The notes below the pieces were generated by a model. The model searched no databases, was not told the DNA's origin, and saw only the letters and a list, made by a program, of their open reading frames with translations. Below are positions 24,597 through 63,237 of a stretch of DNA of 64,000 nt, in pieces. Source of the stretch: Albula goreensis (taxonomy: Eukaryota > Chordata > Actinopteri > Albuliformes > Albulidae); NCBI GenBank assembly GCA_022829145.1, contig CM040742.1, positions 46,392,682 to 46,456,681 on the forward strand. The letters are read 5' to 3'. Both the position numbers and the translations under genes were made by a program. Position 1 is the stretch's first letter. Every line of letters begins with the position of its first letter.

Positions 24597-26340
24597 GAAG
24601 ATCCCCACGATGTGGAAATATTGTCTTTTGTCATATCATGTATTTAAAAATACATGTTTGGGGGGAACACCACACAGTGTGTGAGCAGCAGCTTATTTCA
24701 TACTTTCACTCATTGCCCCCATCCAATCTGAAAAGGTTTAGCGATTTCACAAAGAAGAACGGACAAACCCCACACAGTCCAGATCTGCAAAGCTGACAGA
24801 GACTTATATAAATAGACTCAAGATGGTAATTGCTCCCAAAGAAACCTCTACTGAATATTGACTTAAAGGGATGAATGCTTAACTTAGAGCAATTTGTAGA
24901 CCTGTTTTCCCAGTTTGAAATGATTTTTTTTGTTTGTTTGGGGGGGTCAAATAAGCCTGATTAAATCCATTTTCATTCCATGATGCAAAGCAATAAAATA
25001 CTAATAAGTTCAATGATGAATAATAATGTAGCCACTCTAAGTTATATGTATGTTATTACTGACTAATTAAAATCCCTGTGAATATGTTAACATGGTCCCT
25101 TTGTTCTTTACCATATTTATTCTGACATAATATCAGGATTGCATATATTCCTTCAATCCTTCAAACACACTGAAAGGGCATAATTAAGAACCATGAATGC
25201 CTTCTTAAAGCTGTGTCGGTATCCCTATGTCGGTATCCCTGTGTCTCCGACTCATTCCCTCCCCTGACTTTATACCACTTTAAATTATGTTCTAGACATT
25301 CAGCACATGTTCTCATTCAGAGCGATTTACAGGGTTTACGTCTGTAGACGTTATCTGATTATACGGCCGGATATTTTACTGAGACTGTTAATGTGAATTA
25401 CCTTGGTCAAGGGTAAAGTGCCAGCATCATACGTACTGAACCGAAAGAGGACGATGTACTGCAAGGGTCAGGGATGAATAAAAAAACTACAGAGGTGAGG
25501 TCACCTCACTAGTTGTTACTAAGACTGCTGATTATTGGTGGATACTGCCCACTGGTTAATCCACACTGGGAACCAGGAAGTATAAGCAGAAGGTATCTGC
25601 CAATTACTATCAGTGTTCTACCATGCCATTGTTAGCAATGTATTCTGTGATTGGTGGAGTTTCTCTCAATGCTATCCAATCCATGCTGGAGAAGATGGGA
25701 GGCCGGGGGGTTCTGAATGGTGTATTTGCTGAGTATCAGCAGCAACTGAATTTAGTGTTTGTACAGTAATGGCATACATAACTAAATACAACACACAATA
25801 TGTATCTATTTTCCACTATTTCGGTAACATTTTGTTAATATTTACAGTTACTGATGTCTTGATATGAAATTGACAACTCAATTATATGTATAACTTAAAT
25901 AAAGGTTATGCTAAAAAAGTAATAGGCAGTTTTTGAAAATAACATAAACACACCTAACACATTTTAAATTTTAAAAACAATTATTAAAGTTTAAAAACCT
26001 TTTTTTTATTATTTTGGAATGATACATTTGACTTGCGTCACAGGATCGACTTGTACCACAGCACTTTCCAAAGACAAAACCTGGAGACAGTATTGAGGGT
26101 AAAAGGACAGGACACAGAACATTTATTGCAGAAGTGGTCAGAAAGCCGGTGTGAAGACCGGAGAGAGCAGAAGAAATATTCCATTGAGAGATATGCTGAA
26201 CCAGCTGGAAAGAGTGCATTATGAATCAGAGGAAACTGCACTAGGGCTATGCAGGGCTTTAAATCACATACACAGATTGATCTTTAAATGAGACTTCCTC
26301 ATGTTCTTGTTATTTATTTATGCCCTCATATTCTGCAACT
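24597..26340. other. Gene-free stretch
   Basis: No exon, RNA gene or transposon recognised. Three overlapping frames of 63-82 codons at 25971-26241 on both strands look like chance. Confidence 0.55.
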
Positions 26341-29300
26341 GCCTTGTTATCAATCTGAACTGCACCGCTTTCACCAGGCTTACAGCAGAGAGGTATAAAC
26401 CTGGCACTATCACTCTGAACTGCACTGCTTTCACCAGGCTTACAGCAGAGAGGTATAAACCTGGCACTATCACTCTGAACTGCACTGCTTTCACCAGGCT
26501 TACAGCAGAGAGGTATAAACCTGGCACTATCACTCTGAACTGCACTGCTTTCACCAGGCTTACAGCAGAGAGGTATAAACCTGGCACTATCACTCTGAAC
26601 TGCACTGCTTTCAACAGGCTTACAGCAGAGAGGTATAAACCTGGCACTATCACTCTGAACTGCACTGCTTTCACCAGGCTTACAGCAGAGAGGTATAAAC
26701 CTGGCACTATCACTCTGAACTGCACTGCTTTCAACAGGCTTACAGCAGAGAGGTATAAACCTGGCACTATCACTCTGAACTGCACTGCTTTCACCAGGCT
26801 TACAGCAGAGAGGTATAAACCTGGCACTATCACTCTGAACTGCACTGCTTTCACCAGGCTTACAGCAGAGAGGTATAAACCTGGCACTATCACTCTGAAC
26901 TGCACTGCTTTCACCAGGCTTACAGCAGAGAGATATAAACCTGGCACTATCACTCTGAACTGCACTGCTTTCACCAGGCTTACAGCAGAGAGGTATAAAC
27001 TTGGCACTATCACTCTGAACTGCACTGCTTTCACCAGGCTTACAGCAGAGAGGTATAAACCTGGCACTATCACTCTGAACTGCACTGCTTTCACCAGGCT
27101 TACAGCAGAGAGGTATAAACCTGGCACTATCACTCTGAACTGCACTGCTTTCACCAGGCTTACAGCAGAGAGGTATAAACCTGGCTCTATCACTCTGAAC
27201 TGCACTGCTTTCACCAGGCTTATCGCAGAGAGGTATAAACCTGGCACTATCACTCTGAACTGCACTGCATTCATCAGGCTCATAGCAGAGAGGTATAAAC
27301 CTGGCACTATCACTCTGAACTGCACTGCATTCATCAGGCTCATAGCAGAGAGGTATAAACCTGGCACTATCACTCTGAACTGCACTGCATTCATCAGGCT
27401 CATAGCAGAGAGGTATAAACCTGGCACTATCACTCTGAACTGCACTGCATTCATCAGGCTCATAGCAGAGAGGTATAAACCTGGCACTATCACTCTGAAC
27501 TGCACTGCATTCATCAGGCTCATAGCAGAGAGGTATAAACCTGGCACTATCACTCTGAACTGCACTGCATTCATCAGGCTCATAGCAGAGAGGTATAAAC
27601 CTGGCACTATCACTCTGAACTGCACTGCATTCATCAGGCTCATAGCAGAGAGGTATAAACCTGGCACTATGACTCTGAACTGCACTGCTTTCACCAGGCT
27701 TACAGCAGAGAGGTATAAACCTGGCACTATCACTCTGAACTGCACTGCTTTCACCAGGCTTATAGCAGAGAGGGTATAAACCTGGCACTATGACTCTGAA
27801 CTGCACTGCTTTCACCAGGCTTATAGCAGAGAGGTATAAACCTGGCACTATCACTCTGAACTGCACTGCTTTCACCAGGCTTACAGCAGAGAGTATAAAC
27901 CTGGCACTATCACTCTGAACTGCACTGCTTTCACCGCTTACAGCAGAGAGGTATAAACCTGGCACTATGACTCTGAACTGCACTGCTTTCACCAGGCTTA
28001 CAGCAGAGGTATAAACCTGGCACTATCACTCTGAACTGCACTGCTTTCACCAGGCTTACAGCAGAGAGGTATAAACCTGGCACTATCACTCTGAACTGCA
28101 CTGCTTTCACCAGGCTTACAGCAGAGAGGTATAAACCTGGCACTATCACTCTGAACTGCACTGCTTTCACCAGGCTTACAGCAGAGAGGTATAAACCTGG
28201 CACTATCACTCTGAACTGCACTGCTTTCACCAGGCTTACAGCAGAGAGGATAAACCTGGCACTATCACTCTGAACTGCACTGCTTTCACCAGGCTTATAG
28301 CAGAGAGGTATAAACCTGGCACTATCACTCTGAACTGCACTGCTTTCACCAGGCTTACAGCAGAGAGGTATAAACCTGGCACTATCACTCTGAACTGCAC
28401 TGCTTTCACCAGGCTTACAGCAGAGAGTATAAACCTGGCACTATCACTCTGAACTGCACTGCTTTCACCAGGCTTACAGCAGAGAGGTATAAACCTGGCA
28501 CTATCACTCTGAACTGCACTGCTTTCACCAGGCTTACAGCAGAGAGGTATAAACCTGGCACTATCACTCTGAACTGCACTGCTTTCACCAGGCTTATAGC
28601 AGAGAGAGGTATAAACCTGGCACTACACTCTGAACTGCACTGCTTTCACCAGGCTTACAGCAGAGAGGTATAAACCTGGCACTATCACTCTGAACTGCAC
28701 TGCTTTCACCAGGCTTATAGCAGAGAGGTATAAACCTGGCACTATCACTCTGAACTGCTGCTTTCACCAGGCTTACAGCAGAGGTATAAACCTGGCACCA
28801 CTCTGAACTGCTGCTTTCACCAGGCTTATAGCAGAGAGGTATAAACCTGGCACTATCACTCTGAACTGCACTGCTTTCACCAGGCTTACAGCAGAGAGGT
28901 ATAAACCTGGCACTATCACTCTGAACTGCACTGCTTTCACCAGGCTTACAGCAGAGAGGTATAAACCTGGCACTATCACTCTGAACTGCACTGCTTTCAC
29001 CAGGCTTAACTATAAACCTGGCACTATCACTCCTGAACTGCACTGCTTTCACCAGGCTTACAGCAGAGAGGTATAAACCTGGCACTATCACTCTGAACTG
29101 CACTGCTTTCACCAGGCTTACAGCAGAGAGGTATAAACCTGGCACTATCACTCTGAACTGCACTGCTTTCACCAGGCTTACAGCAGAGAGGTATAAACCT
29201 GGCAGTATCACTCTGAACTGCACTGCTTTCACCAGGCTTATAGCAGAGAGGTATAAACCTGGCACTATCACTCTGAACTGCACTGCTTTCACCAGGCTTA

Positions 29301-29536
29301 CAGCAGAGAGGTATAAACCTGGCACTATCACTCTGAACTGCACTGCTTTCACCAGGCTTACAGCAGAGAGGTATAAACCTGGCACTATCACTCTGAACTG
29401 CACTGCTTTCACCAGGCATACAGCAGAGAGGTCTAAACCTGGCACTATCGCTCTGAACTGCACTGCTTTCACCAGGCTTACAGCAGAGAGGTATAAACCT
29501 GGCACTATCGCTCTGAACTGCACTGCTTTCACCAGG
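26341..29536. repeat. 60-bp tandem repeat (about 53 units)
   Basis: Head-to-tail 60-bp units containing 'aggcttacagcagagaggta', 'taaacctggcactatcac' and 'tctgaactgcactgctttc'. Most units differ at 0-3 positions. Seven consecutive units (27241-27660) share the variant 'gcattcatcaggctcatagc', showing local homogenisation. The right half (after 27770) has many small indels. Because 60 is a multiple of 3 and the unit lacks stops in several frames, long open frames of 492 plus-strand and 560/478/321 minus-strand codons appear. They are repeat artefacts. Each unit contains a TATAAA. Confidence 0.95.
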
Positions 29537-30115
29537 CAATATGTTGCTGCCAGACCCATAGCTTATACAAGACCTAGCAATAGGATACCAAGTTGGGACT
29601 GAACCTTCCACTGAATTACACCTACTACTACTTAGCCAACTTCCCAAGGCCAATAACGGTCACCAAAAGTAATGAGGACCTCAGATGGACTAAGAGGGGA
29701 TGTCATAACCAATCAGAACTTCTTGATTGAGAATTCAATGTCATTTAAGAGAAAAAAAATGTTCTGTTTTTCAATGCTCAACACAAAAACGTTTGCTAGC
29801 TTTTGCTATTCTGCCCCCTGTTGTTGTGTCATGGCTCATTCTGCGGACACACACACACACACACATACATACACACTTACCTACATACGCACACACACAC
29901 ACAAATTCAATCTTGTGTATTTTATTAATAAAGTAGTTTTACAGAATTACATATATGAATTTGGAACCTGGGATTCATAATTGCCATCTTGAGATGGGGT
30001 TTAGTCAAATCTACCACTGGTTGTTGTTGTTGGGGTTTCTGGGAAAAACAGGTTCCCTCCCCCTTTAGAGTTCCTGCATGGCTTTCCTCACCACACACCC
30101 AGTGTACACCTTGCC
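29537..30115. other. Gene-free; CA microsatellite
   Basis: A (CA)n-rich tract lies at about 29849-29904. No gene recognised. Confidence 0.6.
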
Positions 30116-54712: not shown

Positions 54713-54963
54713 TTAGACGATCAGTCTCCGGGGCCTGGTCCTCGGCTCTTGCTCAATAAATTTTGGGCGGATGCCACACTCACACAGGACGCTGTAGGTG
54801 TGCAGCAGCAGGTTTGGGAAGCGGGAGGTGAAGTACGACATGAAGCCATCAGGGACTGGACCCAGTTCCTGCAGTAACTCTGCAGTATGGTGGTGTTTCT
54901 GCAGGCATGAGGAACAATGCAAATTACAGTTCCAGTGCCCTGCAGGGAACATGGAACTCATAC

Positions 54964-55050
<87 letters not shown>

Positions 55051-58000
55051 TTGTGAGCATGTATGTGCGTGAGTGTGTGCGAGCATGTGTGAGTGTATGT
55101 GTGTGTGTATGAGTGTGTGTGTTTGTAGGTGTGTGTGAGTGTGTGGGTATTGCGTGTGTGTGTATATGTGTGAGTATGTGTGCTAGTGTGTATGTGTGTG
55201 TGAATTTGTAGGTGCATGTGAGTGTGTGTGAGTATAGCGTGTGTATGTGTGTGAGTATGTGTGCTAGTGTGTATGTTTGAGAGTGTGTGTGTGAGCGAGT
55301 GTGAGTCTGTATGTGCGTGTGTCTGTGTGTGTGCATATAAAGCTCTTACTTTGTTTCTGATGGCACGTAGGAGGTGTTGTACTTTTGTTCCATCGTACTT
55401 GGACTTCCCTACGGTAAGATCTGTTTCAGATGAGACAAACAGACAGTGTCCAGTGCAGTTTTAGGGTAAACGTGTCTCTTGCTCAGACATTATTTTTTAA
55501 GATTAAACTAAAATGTTAGGTACCTTTCTTCAGCACTTCACTAATGACGTTCATCCAGTCATCCTGGAACACCGCTGAGCTGTTAGCCTCCAGCTTTGTC
55601 AGAATGCCACTGGGTGCTTTCTCACTGATTAGCATGTCACTGGCATCCTATAGCGGTGAAAAGAGCACAGCAGTGAGGCAGAGAGACACAGCTGCTGTGA
55701 GATTACAGACAGCTTTATGTTCTTCATTATGTGCAGGGAATACACATTTAATTCCAATTTAAACAGTAAGAAAATGTGTTCTGAAAGCATTCAGTGAATC
55801 TGTGACAGTGGGTTAGATTTTGTTGGAAGAAGTGCTATACCTGGATGTAGTCCAGCTGGTCCCAGGCATCCCAGAACAGGGGGTTGTCTAAGGCCTCCTG
55901 GGCAGAGGGCCTGGCCTTCGGATCCCTGCTTAGCATCCTTTCTATCAGGGGTCTGGCCAAGACGTGGGCTGCAGGGGCCGGAACAACATCAACACAACAT
56001 CTACACAACTGAGTCACTCTAACTCAGCACTTCAAAACAACATCTACACTGAATTACGAACGCAACAGAGCAACACAACATCTACACTGACTCACTAACA
56101 CAACACTGCAACACAGCATCTATACAACTGATTCACTGTAACTCAACACTACAACTCAACAGCTACATTGACTCACTCTAATGCAATACCACAACACAAC
56201 ATTTACACTAACCCACTCTAATGCAACACTACAACACAACATCTACACTGACCCACTCTTACGCAACACTACAACACAACATCTACACTGACTCGCTCTA
56301 ACGCAACACTACAACACAACATCTACACTGACTCGCTCTAACTCAACAGTACAACACAACATTTACACTAACCCACTCTAATGCAACACTACAACACAAC
56401 ATCTACACTGACCTGCTCCAACTCAACAATACAACACAACATCTACACTGACCTGCTCTAACGCAACACTACAACACAACATCTACACTGACTCGCTCTA
56501 ACTCAACAGTACAACACAACATTTACACTGACTCGCTCTAACTCAACAGTACAACACAACATCTACACTGACTCGCTCTAACTCAACAGTACAACACAGA
56601 CTCACCGTGCGTGTGTGGATTTAGCTTGTCCAGTGTGAACTGGAAGTGGGAAATGTTTTTGATGATATCTAAAGTCGAGGTCCCAAAGGGATGGCCGCCC
56701 TCAGACAGCACAAAATAAATCACAGAGCCTGCAGAGAAGATGTCAACACTGCAGCCCTGCAGGAGAATATACAAACAGGACAGTGTCATTGCGCCCCCTG
56801 CAGGAGAATATACAAACAGGACAGTGTCATTGCGCCCCCTGCAGGAGAATATACAAACAGGACAGAGTCTTTACCCCCCCCTACATGAGAATACACACAC
56901 TGGACAGAGTCTTTACCCCCCCCCTACATGAGAATACACACACTGGACAGTGTCATTACGCCCCCTGCAGGAGAATACAAACTCAGGAAAACGACACTGA
57001 ACCCCTTAGAGGAGAATAAAAACACTGGACAGCATTATGTTTCCACTCCTGTACACAATGAGAACAAAATACTGTTCCAGACTGTGCCAAAACCGGCAAC
57101 CAAGACTTGATAGGAAAAGTTGTGTGTGATTTTGCCTACATTACATAGTTAGAGATTACATAAATGAATCATGCAAGATGGTATTACAATTGCATAAACT
57201 GTCCAAAAATTAATTTAAAAAAACCATTAAAAAAGCAAACATATAAAAATATCTACTGCTCCATAGCCTTACTGCCATATACTGCTCCATGCCCTGCCAT
57301 ATAGTGCTCCATGGTCTGTCAGATACTCCACGAATATACTGTATAATTTTTATAAAATTCTTATTTGACGGCCCATTGCATCTGCACATGTCAGAGTGTA
57401 CGCATTTGCGCACTCACAAGCCTGTCTGATTTTCGGTTTATAACTTCAGGGGCCATCCAGCACAGGGAGCCGACTTCCCCAGAGGTGTTGCTGTAGCTAT
57501 TTCTGTCCATATCCATCTGCTTCCCAAGACCAAAGTCTGAGATCTTGGCCTTCACATCACCACTAAAGTCAATCACAGACAGCAGGATGTTTGAGGGCTT
57601 CAGGTCTCTGTGCACTGAACAGAAAAACACAGAAACAATGCAGGGACAAGATGAGCTGTGTGTGACTGCCAGGAGACTCATTCACACAGACTGAAATTCC
57701 ACAGCTGTCACTCTGCTGTGTGAGAGGTGTTGAATGTGTCTGAGAATATGAATAAATCATAAATCTGATCACCCATGCTGCCTGCTGCTCTATGGAGCAG
57801 GCAATACATTTCTTTTTTACTCTGTTTTGTTGGATTATTCTGCAGTACAATTAAGATGTGCATCAAAACATCACCTAACATTTACACAAACACCATGCTA
57901 CCAGATGAAAGCAGTCTTGCACAGTCATATACTTCTTGAGGGTTTAATCGATGGGCTTGACTTAAATGCTCTATGCTAGTTCTGAGTGTTGTGCTTGACT

Positions 58001-60694
58001 ACAATTCTGAAGATTCAGCAAACCCTTCATATTCATGACCCTTAGCCACATACTACAGCGGGATAAAGAGCATGACCTTACCGATTTTTAGGGAGTGTAG
58101 GTAAAAAAGTCCTGACATTGTCTGCTGAAGAAATGTCACATGATTCTTCCTGTCTTTTTTCTCTTCTATGTACTGTAAGGAAGCATATGATGTCTTTGAA
58201 AAGGGATTTCAAGGTCAGGTATAATCAAAATATCAGTGTGACTGCTGTCATTGTGATTATATTTTTTAAAAATGTACAAAAAATCTTTCAAACTTTAAAG
58301 CCTACAGTATATAGTATATATCAACAACACTTTCATTTGTGATATGAATAGAAAATTGAATAAAATTACCTCTGGTACCAGTGCGTTGTGTGCAGTAAGA
58401 ACTCTAGACTAATTTGATATGATACAGGGATCGACATGCAGACGGACAGTGTGGGGCTGGGATACCGTTTGAAGAGTAGAGGAGCAAAGCTCCAGAATGA
58501 TGTACTGGAAATCATTGTCCACCCAGTTTGCAAAGTAGCGAATGACATGTGGGTGATCGTCCAAGCGAAGCAGCAGCTCCGCTTCCGTTAAGGCGAACTT
58601 GCTGTAATCTCGTAGCATCCGTTTTACCGCCACTTTGCGCTTTTGAAATGTTCCCCTGCATTAAAAACACCGCACCAATCATGCACGGCAAACACCCCAA
58701 CAGCAGGCACACTAACTAATCTCAGCTAATTAGCTTCATTACAACTGGCGTACTTGTATTGCAATTCATTATAATTATTAGTATTCCACAGGTCAAGTGG
58801 CAAGACTGCACTAAATGATTTATTAAATATTATACTGTAATGTAGTACAGTATGATATACTATCAATGTGGAAGGGAATGTAGAATTTGTCCCAGTTGGC
58901 TGCTCCTCAAATGGAATGTGGAATGTGTCCTGATTGGCTGCTCTTTTAAAGGTAATGTGGAAGGTGTCCTGATTGGCTGCTCTTTTAAAGGTAATGTGGA
59001 AGGTGTCCTGATTGGCTGCTCTTTTTAGAGGTAATGTGGAAGGTGTCCTAAAGGTAATGTGGAAGGTGTCCTGATTGGCTGCTCTTTTAAAGGTAATGTG
59101 GAAGGTGTCCTGATTGGCTGCTCTTTTAAAGGTAATGTGGAAGGTGTCCTGATTGGCTACTCTTCTAAAGGTAATGTGGAAGGTGTCCTGATTGGCTGCT
59201 CTTTTAAAGGTAATGTGGAAGGTGTCCTGATTGGCTGCTCTTCTAAAGGTAATGTGGAAGGTGTCCTGATTGGCTGCTCTTTTAAAGGTAATGTGGAAGG
59301 TGTCCTGATTGGCTGCTCTTTTAAAGGTAATGTGGAAGGTGTCCTGATTGGCTACTCTTCTAAAGGTAATGTGGAAGGTGTCCTGATTGGCTGCTCTTTT
59401 AAAGGTAATGTGGAAGGTGTCCTGATTGGCTGCTCTTTTAAAGGTAATGTGGAAGGTGTCCTGATTGGCTGCTCGTTTAAAGGTAATGTGGAAGATGTCC
59501 TGATTGCTGCTCTTCTAAAGGTAATGTGGAAGGTGTCCTGATTGGCTGCTCTTTTAAAGGTAATGTGGAAGGTGTCCTGATTAGCTGCTGCACTTCAGCC
59601 AGAAGCCCATCCTGTGCAATGGAAGACTGAGCCATTAAATCCCAGAGCTCGTTTGGACATTCCTCTTTAACACTATTTTCCTGCTGCACTTAAATTATTA
59701 AAAATGCAATTGAACATTTCACTTACTCATACACTAAGGTTCCACTGGCTCCTCTCCCTAAAATCTTGGTGTTAGGTGTATATGGGATCTTAACATCATC
59801 TGGCACACCTTAGATACATGGAAAACAGTTAGCATAGAAAACAAGATATTAATTTATCTCTACACGATGTGTGTTTGTATGTTTCTTTGCAATGAAAGGA
59901 TGACCAGAGGTGAGACTGGAATAGAGTCATCAGAAGAGAGGCAGGCTTACTCAAGTCTTGGACAAGATGAGGTTCCTCCTCCTGTAATTTCTTGTAAAGC
60001 TCAGCTTTTGTTTCATCGTCCAGGTTTCCAGCTGTGGGCTCAGAGCTCAAGAGCTTTTTGAGTTTGTCTTTGTGCTTGTCAACAAATGTAACAGCTTACC
60101 AGAGACAGACAGGGGACAGGGGGACACACAGAATATGTGTTCAGCAAAATAATCACATCATCCCCATACAGTATCTACTATTAGCATTTGGTTGGTTAAC
60201 TAATTTCTTATTGTGTGAAGAATTTTCAGTGTTAATGTCACATTTTTTGTGACCTATACAAATGGTACAAATGAAAACATCAATAGATTGTGGGATGTAT
60301 TAATGCTGAAATTGCTCTTATACTCAAAATCTGTGTAAATCACTAACCATTGCACCATCTAGTATTTGAACCAAGATACTGTGCAGAATTTTGTAGCGCA
60401 GTTATGGTGAGGTGAATCACTGCATGTGACAGAGCACCTGTAGTATGGTCTTACCCAGATCCTCCATAAGATAAGGCTGCTGCTCTTCAAGGATGAGATA
60501 GAAAGCTTCTTGAGACTCTATAGTATTTAACGCATGGAACAGCTTCCTCATTTTATCCTGGCTGGTTCTACCACTGATAATGACATTGTACATTTCATTG
60601 TTGATGAACTTCCTTTGAAGCAGTCTGTCAGCGATGGGTTCCACCAGAGTCACACGCTGGATAAACTCTGCCCGGTGACTCTCCACAAACCTGG
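54713..60694 (-). CDS. CARD - IRE1-type kinase - KEN endoribonuclease (11 exons seen, 5' exon missing)
   Basis: Exons in order: 60455-60694, 59951-60094, 59727-59808, 58466-58655, 58082-58172, 57418-57614, 56606-56756, 55841-55968, 55524-55647, 55350-55408, 54713-54898. All junctions are GT-AG and phases match, giving about 530 codons to TAA. Residues 1-80 form a CARD (RFVESHRAEFIQRV, TSQDKMRKLF, EEQQPYLMEDL). Residues 81-128 are a short CARD-like piece (FVDKHKDKLKKLL). The kinase is complete: GRGASG, VAVKR, HRDLKPSN, SDFG, WMAPEV, VDIFSAGSVIYFVLSEGGHPF. The KEN domain has SKYDG, LLRAIRNKKHHH and YFTSRFPNLLLHTY, keeping the Tyr, Arg, Asn and His that IRE1 needs for RNA cleavage. It is nearer IRE1 than RNase L, but has no lumenal, membrane or ankyrin part. 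The inferred role is a cytosolic, CARD-triggered RNA-cleaving sensor or effector. The start exon was not found, so the N-terminus is open. Confidence 0.88.
54960..55335 (+). repeat. (GT)n microsatellite in last intron
   Basis: A pure GT run of about 75 bp at 54966-55042 is followed by degenerate GT/GA-rich repeats up to about 55335. It fills most of the intron 54899-55349 of the kinase-KEN gene and creates false Thr/His-rich frames. Confidence 0.95.
56000..56600. repeat. 40-bp minisatellite in intron
   Basis: About 15 units built on 'acaacacaacatctacactg' and 'actcgctctaacgcaacact', 40 bp apart. It fills the intron between the exons 55841-55968 and 56606-56756. Confidence 0.9.
56757..57030. 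repeat. 41-bp minisatellite in intron
   Basis: About seven diverging units of 'ctgcaggagaatatacaaac' plus 'aggacagtgtcattgcgccc'. The first unit overlaps the splice acceptor of exon 56606-56756 (ctcctgcag). Every ctgcagg unit therefore resembles that acceptor, a possible source of mis-splicing. Confidence 0.85.
58883..59595 (-). repeat. 39-bp minisatellite with tandem CCAAT boxes
   Basis: About 18 units of 39 bp ('aaggtaatgtggaaggtg', 'tcctgattggctgctctttt') in the intron between exons 58466-58655 and 59727-59808. On the gene's sense strand about 15 units read AGCCAATCAG (two read GTAGCCAATCAG), the NF-Y consensus. The 160-codon plus-strand frame 59059-59541 is a repeat artefact, since 39 is divisible by 3. 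Confidence 0.92.
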
Positions 60695-62757: not shown

Positions 62758-63237
62758 TCAAAATTTGTCTGTCAACCTACCTCCTGAGGAATCTGGTTCT
62801 GGGTAAATAGCTGATATAACTGTGATACGTCGGGGATCCCAGACACAGTCCTCTTCCAGGTCACTCGGCAACATCCCACAGTTAGGGGGAATCCAGGCCG
62901 TGTCGTACCCATGTTTCGTGTGCCAGGTCTTCTGCATGGGGTGGCCTTGCCTGTCAATCTTCTTCACTCTGCCCACATTAACCCTGAGCTTCAGCACAAC
63001 TCTCTCATGCTCAGGTAGCTCCAGGGGGTACCTGCTGGCCTTGTGAAGGTCACGGCTGATATAGACACCCTGCCCTAATATGCCGTCGCTAGACTGACGG
63101 AACCCATTGGCCATAATTTGTTGAGCAGCTGCTCTGGAAGTTCCATGGTACATGATGTACCTATTGGCATCTCTAGGTTCCATGTAGCTCCTCGGCCATG
63201 TGTCTGAGGATGGCTCAAAATCGTCTTCTGCCCACAT
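62758..63237 (-). CDS. gig2: Gig2 family PARP-like protein
   Basis: A single coding exon of 159 residues. The acceptor ctgcag ends 16 bp before the ATG. Its N-terminal 12 residues (MWAEDDFEPSSD) are identical to those of the copy at 50025-50522, and all Gig2 motifs are present: YIMYHGTSRAAAQQIMANGF, ILGQGVYISRDLHKASRYP, RVNVGRVKKIDRQGHP, YDTAWIPPNCGM and LEEDCVWDPRRITV. The PARP-like His and Tyr are kept. By hand count about 26 of the first 149 residues differ from the other copy, and the tail (EPDSSGGRLTDKF) is unrelated. It lies upstream of the CARD-kinase-KEN gene on the same strand, 2.1 kb from its first visible exon. Its putative first-exon donor has GTCAGA where the other copy has GTAAGA, so its splicing may differ. 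Confidence 0.92.
   Translation of the reverse strand: MWAEDDFEPSSDTWPRSYMEPRDANRYIMYHGTSRAAAQQIMANGFRQSSDGILGQGVYISRDLHKASRYPLELPEHERVVLKLRVNVGRVKKIDRQGHPMQKTWHTKHGYDTAWIPPNCGMLPSDLEEDCVWDPRRITVISAIYPEPDSSGGRLTDKF

Follow-up and report, generated by a model that had tools for sequence, protein, structure and literature searches.

To our knowledge, the KEN ribonucleases of animals have only two known inputs: IRE1 responds to unfolded protein in the ER, and RNase L to 2-5A. An initial annotation of a 64,000-nucleotide stretch of Albula goreensis DNA (the window) placed a CARD upstream of an IRE1-like kinase and a KEN ribonuclease, and the question raised by this locus is whether these parts belong to one gene, where such a gene starts and what would switch on its product.

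As shown in Table 1, a minus-strand model of 12 exons, running from 63237 to a TAA ending at 54713, gave a single open frame of 686 residues. All 11 introns were GT-AG and the junctions were in phase at 11/11 (in/out: 0/1, 1/1, 1/1, 1/2, 2/0, 0/1, 1/0, 0/1, 1/0, 0/1, 1/0, 0/end); as a point against the model, exons 60694-60455 and 60094-59951 have donors that score only 6/9 and 5/9, respectively. These two exons and the nine kinase-KEN exons (59808 to 54713) of the initial annotation were all recovered on the minus strand at those positions, and the phase-matched splice structure that it had described from CARD to kinase was found again, with GT-AG introns, matching phases and a frame open to the TAA at 54713. 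Its extent of the gene was right for these exons and probably wrong for the start, a probable Gig2/PARP-like exon (63237-62781) further upstream, with its promoter, having been missed.

Table 1. Exons of the gene model, from the probable start to the stop codon
Feature	Position in window	Strand	Basis
Gig2 family domain (PARP-like), probably the first coding exon	62781..63237	-	ATG to phase-1 donor; Pfam PARP; Gig2 neighbour identity
CARD exon, phase 1-1	60455..60694	-	Pfam CARD; PDB sequence matches
Short exon of phase 1-1; a linker at least, perhaps a truncated second CARD	59951..60094	-	In phase
Kinase exon 1 (phase 1 in, 2 out) with Gly-rich loop	59727..59808	-	PDB IRE1 match; ERN1 alignment
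Kinase exon 2, VAVK lysine codon 58624-58622	58466..58655	-	PDB IRE1 match; residue check
Kinase exon 3	58082..58172	-	Frame; PDB IRE1 match
Kinase exon 4, HRDLKPSN, DFG and three activation-loop-position serines	57418..57614	-	PDB match; ERN1 alignment
Kinase exon 5	56606..56756	-	Frame; PDB IRE1 match
Kinase exon 6	55841..55968	-	Frame; PDB IRE1 match
KEN exon 1	55524..55647	-	Pfam Ribonuc_2-5A; PDB IRE1 match
KEN exon 2, catalytic Tyr 55397-55395, Arg-Asn 55358-55353	55350..55420	-	KEN-only PDB match; residue check
KEN exon 3, catalytic His 54892-54890, ends at stop	54713..54898	-	KEN-only PDB match; residue check

Several repeats lie in the window. The first kinase intron holds a minisatellite of 39-base units (58896-59589) that is open in several frames, and other kinase introns hold minisatellites of 40 and 41 bases (55990-56598 and 56755-56979). 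The last of these lies directly against the exon 56756-56606 acceptor, and an acceptor-like TCTCCTGCAGGG is repeated with its unit. Elsewhere in the window (26292-29659), open frames with repeated peptides in several frames pointed, by eye, to a long tandem repeat.

Along the model, Pfam recognised PARP (9.8e-8), CARD (2.1e-13), Pkinase (9.2e-45) and Ribonuc_2-5A (3.5e-28) in that order, each above its curated cut-off; the last three are the profiles that the initial annotation had proposed for checking the conceptual protein. The best PDB sequence match of the model was IRE1 (7.6e-105), and the 56 PDB rows with E of 1e-25 or lower included no RNase L. When the KEN part was searched by itself at E up to 1, 16 of the 19 PDB matches were IRE1 and three were designed proteins, an RNase L chain being absent from these 19. 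Eight residues that we take to be catalytic were checked and all were kept: the kinase Lys, HRD Asp, Asn and DFG Asp, and in KEN Tyr 610, Arg-Asn 623-624 and His 628. The kinase is thus complete and IRE1-like and is followed by a KEN domain with Tyr, Arg-Asn and His in place, as had been claimed. Neither an ER-lumenal domain nor ankyrin repeats were found in a Pfam scan of the exon model at E up to 1, and the model contained no transmembrane-like segment, the highest 19-residue Kyte-Doolittle mean being 1.59, within the kinase.

The kinase-KEN half was compared with ERN1 of the same genome (C8, 24.83 Mb), whose exons were modelled by eye into an open frame that has one GC donor and is identical to the human IRE1 chain at 332/387 residues. 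The two were identical at 186/383 residues (48.6%), and all eight introns within the kinase-KEN half matched those of ERN1 in alignment column and phase; the first kinase exon is entered in phase 1 in both genes. Because of these shared introns, the kinase-KEN half is, as read from the alignment, an IRE1 paralogue that arose as an old intron-bearing duplicate, and a retrocopy origin is ruled out. About half of its residues have changed relative to ERN1, yet there is no stop and the eight checked residues are retained. Three serines align with the activation-loop serines of human IRE1.

Other IRE1-type loci were seen in this genome. A second IRE1-type gene lies at C8:4856000-4865900; its exons, joined by eye, did not stay open, and the frame of one kinase exon seems broken; assembly error, decay or exon choice may be the cause. 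A further IRE1-like kinase gene lies at C22:6388000-6397900, where a KEN exon was not found. At C2:49508728-49508850, 3 Mb from the window gene, is a relic of one of its KEN exons (121/136 bases identical) with, by eye, an altered donor. A search of viral contigs for relatives of the kinase-KEN protein gave three pattern matches, none of them a relative.

Exon 60694-60455 by itself matched Pfam CARD at 1.2e-13. Its closest PDB sequences were the CARDs of zebrafish GBP-like protein, NLRP1 and ASC, the closest of all being from zebrafish. The best of five single-sequence structure models had a pLDDT of 70.6 (the other four, 52-55), and its top Foldseek rows were CARDs, all with E above 0.001. 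Entries of the filament-forming ASC/NLRP1 group were among the rows, and the first RIPK2 CARD stood at rank 12, with zebrafish GBP-NLRP1-like and ASC ranked higher. The exon that follows, 60094-59951, had no significant Pfam or PDB match: its sole PDB rows were an NLRP1 CARD at E 0.61-0.94, which is not significant, and by eye it resembles the two ends of a CARD. By these sequence matches exon 60694-60455 is the only demonstrable CARD of the gene, and exon 60094-59951 is at most a half-CARD remnant; the CARD that had been claimed upstream of kinase and KEN therefore stands for the former exon and is unsupported for the latter. Among 36 CARD places and three KEN loci in the genome (best candidates only in both), this CARD was the only one beside a KEN domain. 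CARD relatives on C14 adjoin open frames that we take, by eye, to be GTPase-like and FIIND-like.

A start upstream of the CARD exon is required, and the nearest recognised coding exon upstream is a Gig2 copy at 63237-62781. This exon has the PARP-like N-terminus and conserved sequence of the Gig2 family, and it shares 82% amino-acid identity with a neighbouring Gig2 at 50522-50064. Two of three sites of the PARP-like part were located (His, residue 31; Tyr, residue 59). A low-confidence structure model of this part (pLDDT 54.4) ranked PARP10 first at E 6.3e-3, which lends it weak support. Gig2 match rows in the genome numbered 27, fragments included, all on the chromosome of the window, in two clusters (C2:44918356-44962017 and 46433211-46471013) plus one row at 27.7 Mb; several rows had stops inside the matched stretch.

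The window copy was compared with the two nearest same-strand copies, with two further copies (L038 and L039) added as controls. Its 5′ flank was 90% identical to one neighbour over 836 bp and 83% identical to another over 768 bp, and its coding part was homologous to both. Past the donor, the window copy scored 18 and 14 against the two neighbours (maxima of 20 shuffles, 20 and 20), whereas the neighbours scored 162 against each other over the same downstream stretch (shuffle maximum, 26). Downstream, L039 scored 72 and 90 with the two neighbours and 16 with the window copy. L038 had no downstream similarity to the four other Gig2 copies, so the 3′ ends of Gig2 genes can be altered by other causes as well. 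The break in homology falls, to within a few bases, at a phase-1 donor, GAG/GTAGGT; the window has 0.0021 donor-like sites per base that score at least 7/9.

Just past the end of the window, at about -901 to -886 of the window Gig2 copy, is an ISRE-like tandem, TTTCGGTTTCGGTTTC, which sits just upstream of the stretch common to other Gig2 copies. Within 1.5 kb, a strict ISRE core was present for the window copy, L036 and L038 and absent for L037 and L039; this absence and the position outside the common stretch weigh against the reading favoured below. About 70 bases before the ATG of the Gig2 exon is, by eye, an acceptor-like TTCTTGCAG, like the acceptor of the 5′UTR intron in the zebrafish Gig2 gene DreI. 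For DreI, such an intron and an ISRE essential for induction are described in PMC3296712, a zebrafish study in which overexpression of DreI set up an antiviral state. The Gig2 promoter would place the window gene under interferon control.

Whether the Gig2 exon belongs to this gene at all has to be weighed. There may instead be two genes, a Gig2 gene ending at 62758 and a separate CARD-kinase-KEN gene starting from an unrecognised exon or ATG upstream of the CARD exon, which would make an RNase that works in the way proposed below but has neither a PARP-like part nor a Gig2 promoter. The Gig2 frame does stop by itself at 62758, 21-23 bases beyond the donor, giving 160 aa (zebrafish DreI, 158 aa), and the CARD frame is open upstream to 60971 with an in-frame ATG. 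Moreover, same-strand Gig2 copies flank the locus on both sides, so that one would lie next to the CARD exon in any case, and the match in phase between the two exons has by itself a chance of 1 in 3. Against two genes, the homology with Gig2 neighbours stops at a donor-like site of the right phase, and the sequence just upstream of the CARD exon looks repeat-like: a 22-base motif is present there twice and recurs near a different Gig2 copy (in all at 4/44 loci examined, two pairs of which overlap). The sole other candidate exon examined between Gig2 and CARD (61283-61207, by eye) is open only from phase 2 and runs into a stop in the Gig2 phase. Two genes are on this evidence unlikely, and the Gig2 exon is quite probably joined to the CARD exon by splicing.

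The role of the CARD can also be read otherwise. RIPK2 is a known CARD-kinase and its CARDs are among the Foldseek rows given above, so the kinase or the Gig2 part might do the signalling, for example as a RIPK2-like scaffold, with RNA cutting secondary or lost; conservation of the KEN catalytic residues across ~50% divergence speaks against this, and we hold it to be distinctly improbable. That the exon model is an artefact, or the gene a decaying duplicate with no protein product, is more remote still. The KEN-exon relic 3 Mb off shows that copies do decay, but here a 12-exon frame is open, and splice sites and active sites are intact after about half of the residues have changed.

We therefore lean, with some reserve, towards one apparently single-copy gene, born in the Gig2 tandem array by exon shuffling, whose product would be a soluble 686-aa Gig2 (PARP-like)-CARD-kinase-KEN protein acting as a CARD-triggered RNase. 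Through introns of phase 1, a Gig2 first exon and promoter would have come to stand in front of two other parts, a CARD exon of the ASC/NLRP1 type and the kinase-KEN half of a duplicated IRE1. IRE1 and RNase L are activated when their kinase-KEN units are brought together, clustering being established for IRE1. ASC/NLRP1-group CARDs, for their part, assemble into filaments. A soluble protein that combines CARD, kinase and KEN is therefore best read as an assembly-triggered RNase, and CARD-driven activation would be reasonable by analogy. Interferon would induce the gene through the Gig2 promoter; a signal of infection or damage would drive assembly of the CARD, by itself or together with ASC/NLRP1-like partners, and so bring the kinase-KEN parts together. 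The kinase parts would then trans-autophosphorylate and form an IRE1-type dimer or oligomer, whose KEN would cut RNA. The role of the Gig2 part would be to bind ADP-ribose or transfer it, or else to determine where the protein is located.

Such a fusion points to a third mode of activation for KEN-type RNA cutters in animals. More tentatively, and with somewhat more doubt than belief, the gene might stand for a third class of KEN ribonuclease in animals, a cytosolic offshoot of IRE1 that is induced by interferon, switched on by CARD assembly and tuned by a PARP-like part, possibly filling the role of RNase L without OAS-2-5A; an OAS1_C profile search of the genome gave 0 matches, a result that does not imply absence since the search had no positive control. 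A CARD input, if true, would tie inflammasome-type assembly directly to RNA decay, and a Gig2 front end would mean interferon control and give the PARP-like domain of Gig2, itself little understood, a concrete setting. No paper joining CARD with KEN or Gig2 with IRE1 was found using narrow terms in titles and the starts of abstracts, and the gene may be annotated under another name.

Among known systems, IRE1 (ERN1/ERN2) shares with the window gene the kinase and KEN, the catalytic residues, the activation-loop serines and eight intron positions and phases; the window gene differs in having no detected lumenal sensor or transmembrane segment, and Gig2 and CARD exons in front. It resembles RNase L in being a soluble kinase-like and KEN RNase tied to interferon, but has no ankyrin repeats and has complete kinase motifs. 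The Gig2 family is described in PMC3617106 as interferon-stimulated, PARP-like and present in non-amniote vertebrates. The window copy is like other Gig2 genes in its N-terminal exon, 5′ flank and tandem array, but its C-terminal end is replaced at the splice donor, with the CARD, kinase and KEN exons probably following. Fish ASC, NLRP1 and GBP CARD proteins share the sequence and fold of the CARD, which here precedes a kinase-RNase. The parts are known individually, and CARD-kinase-KEN with a probable Gig2 front appears to be a new arrangement of them.
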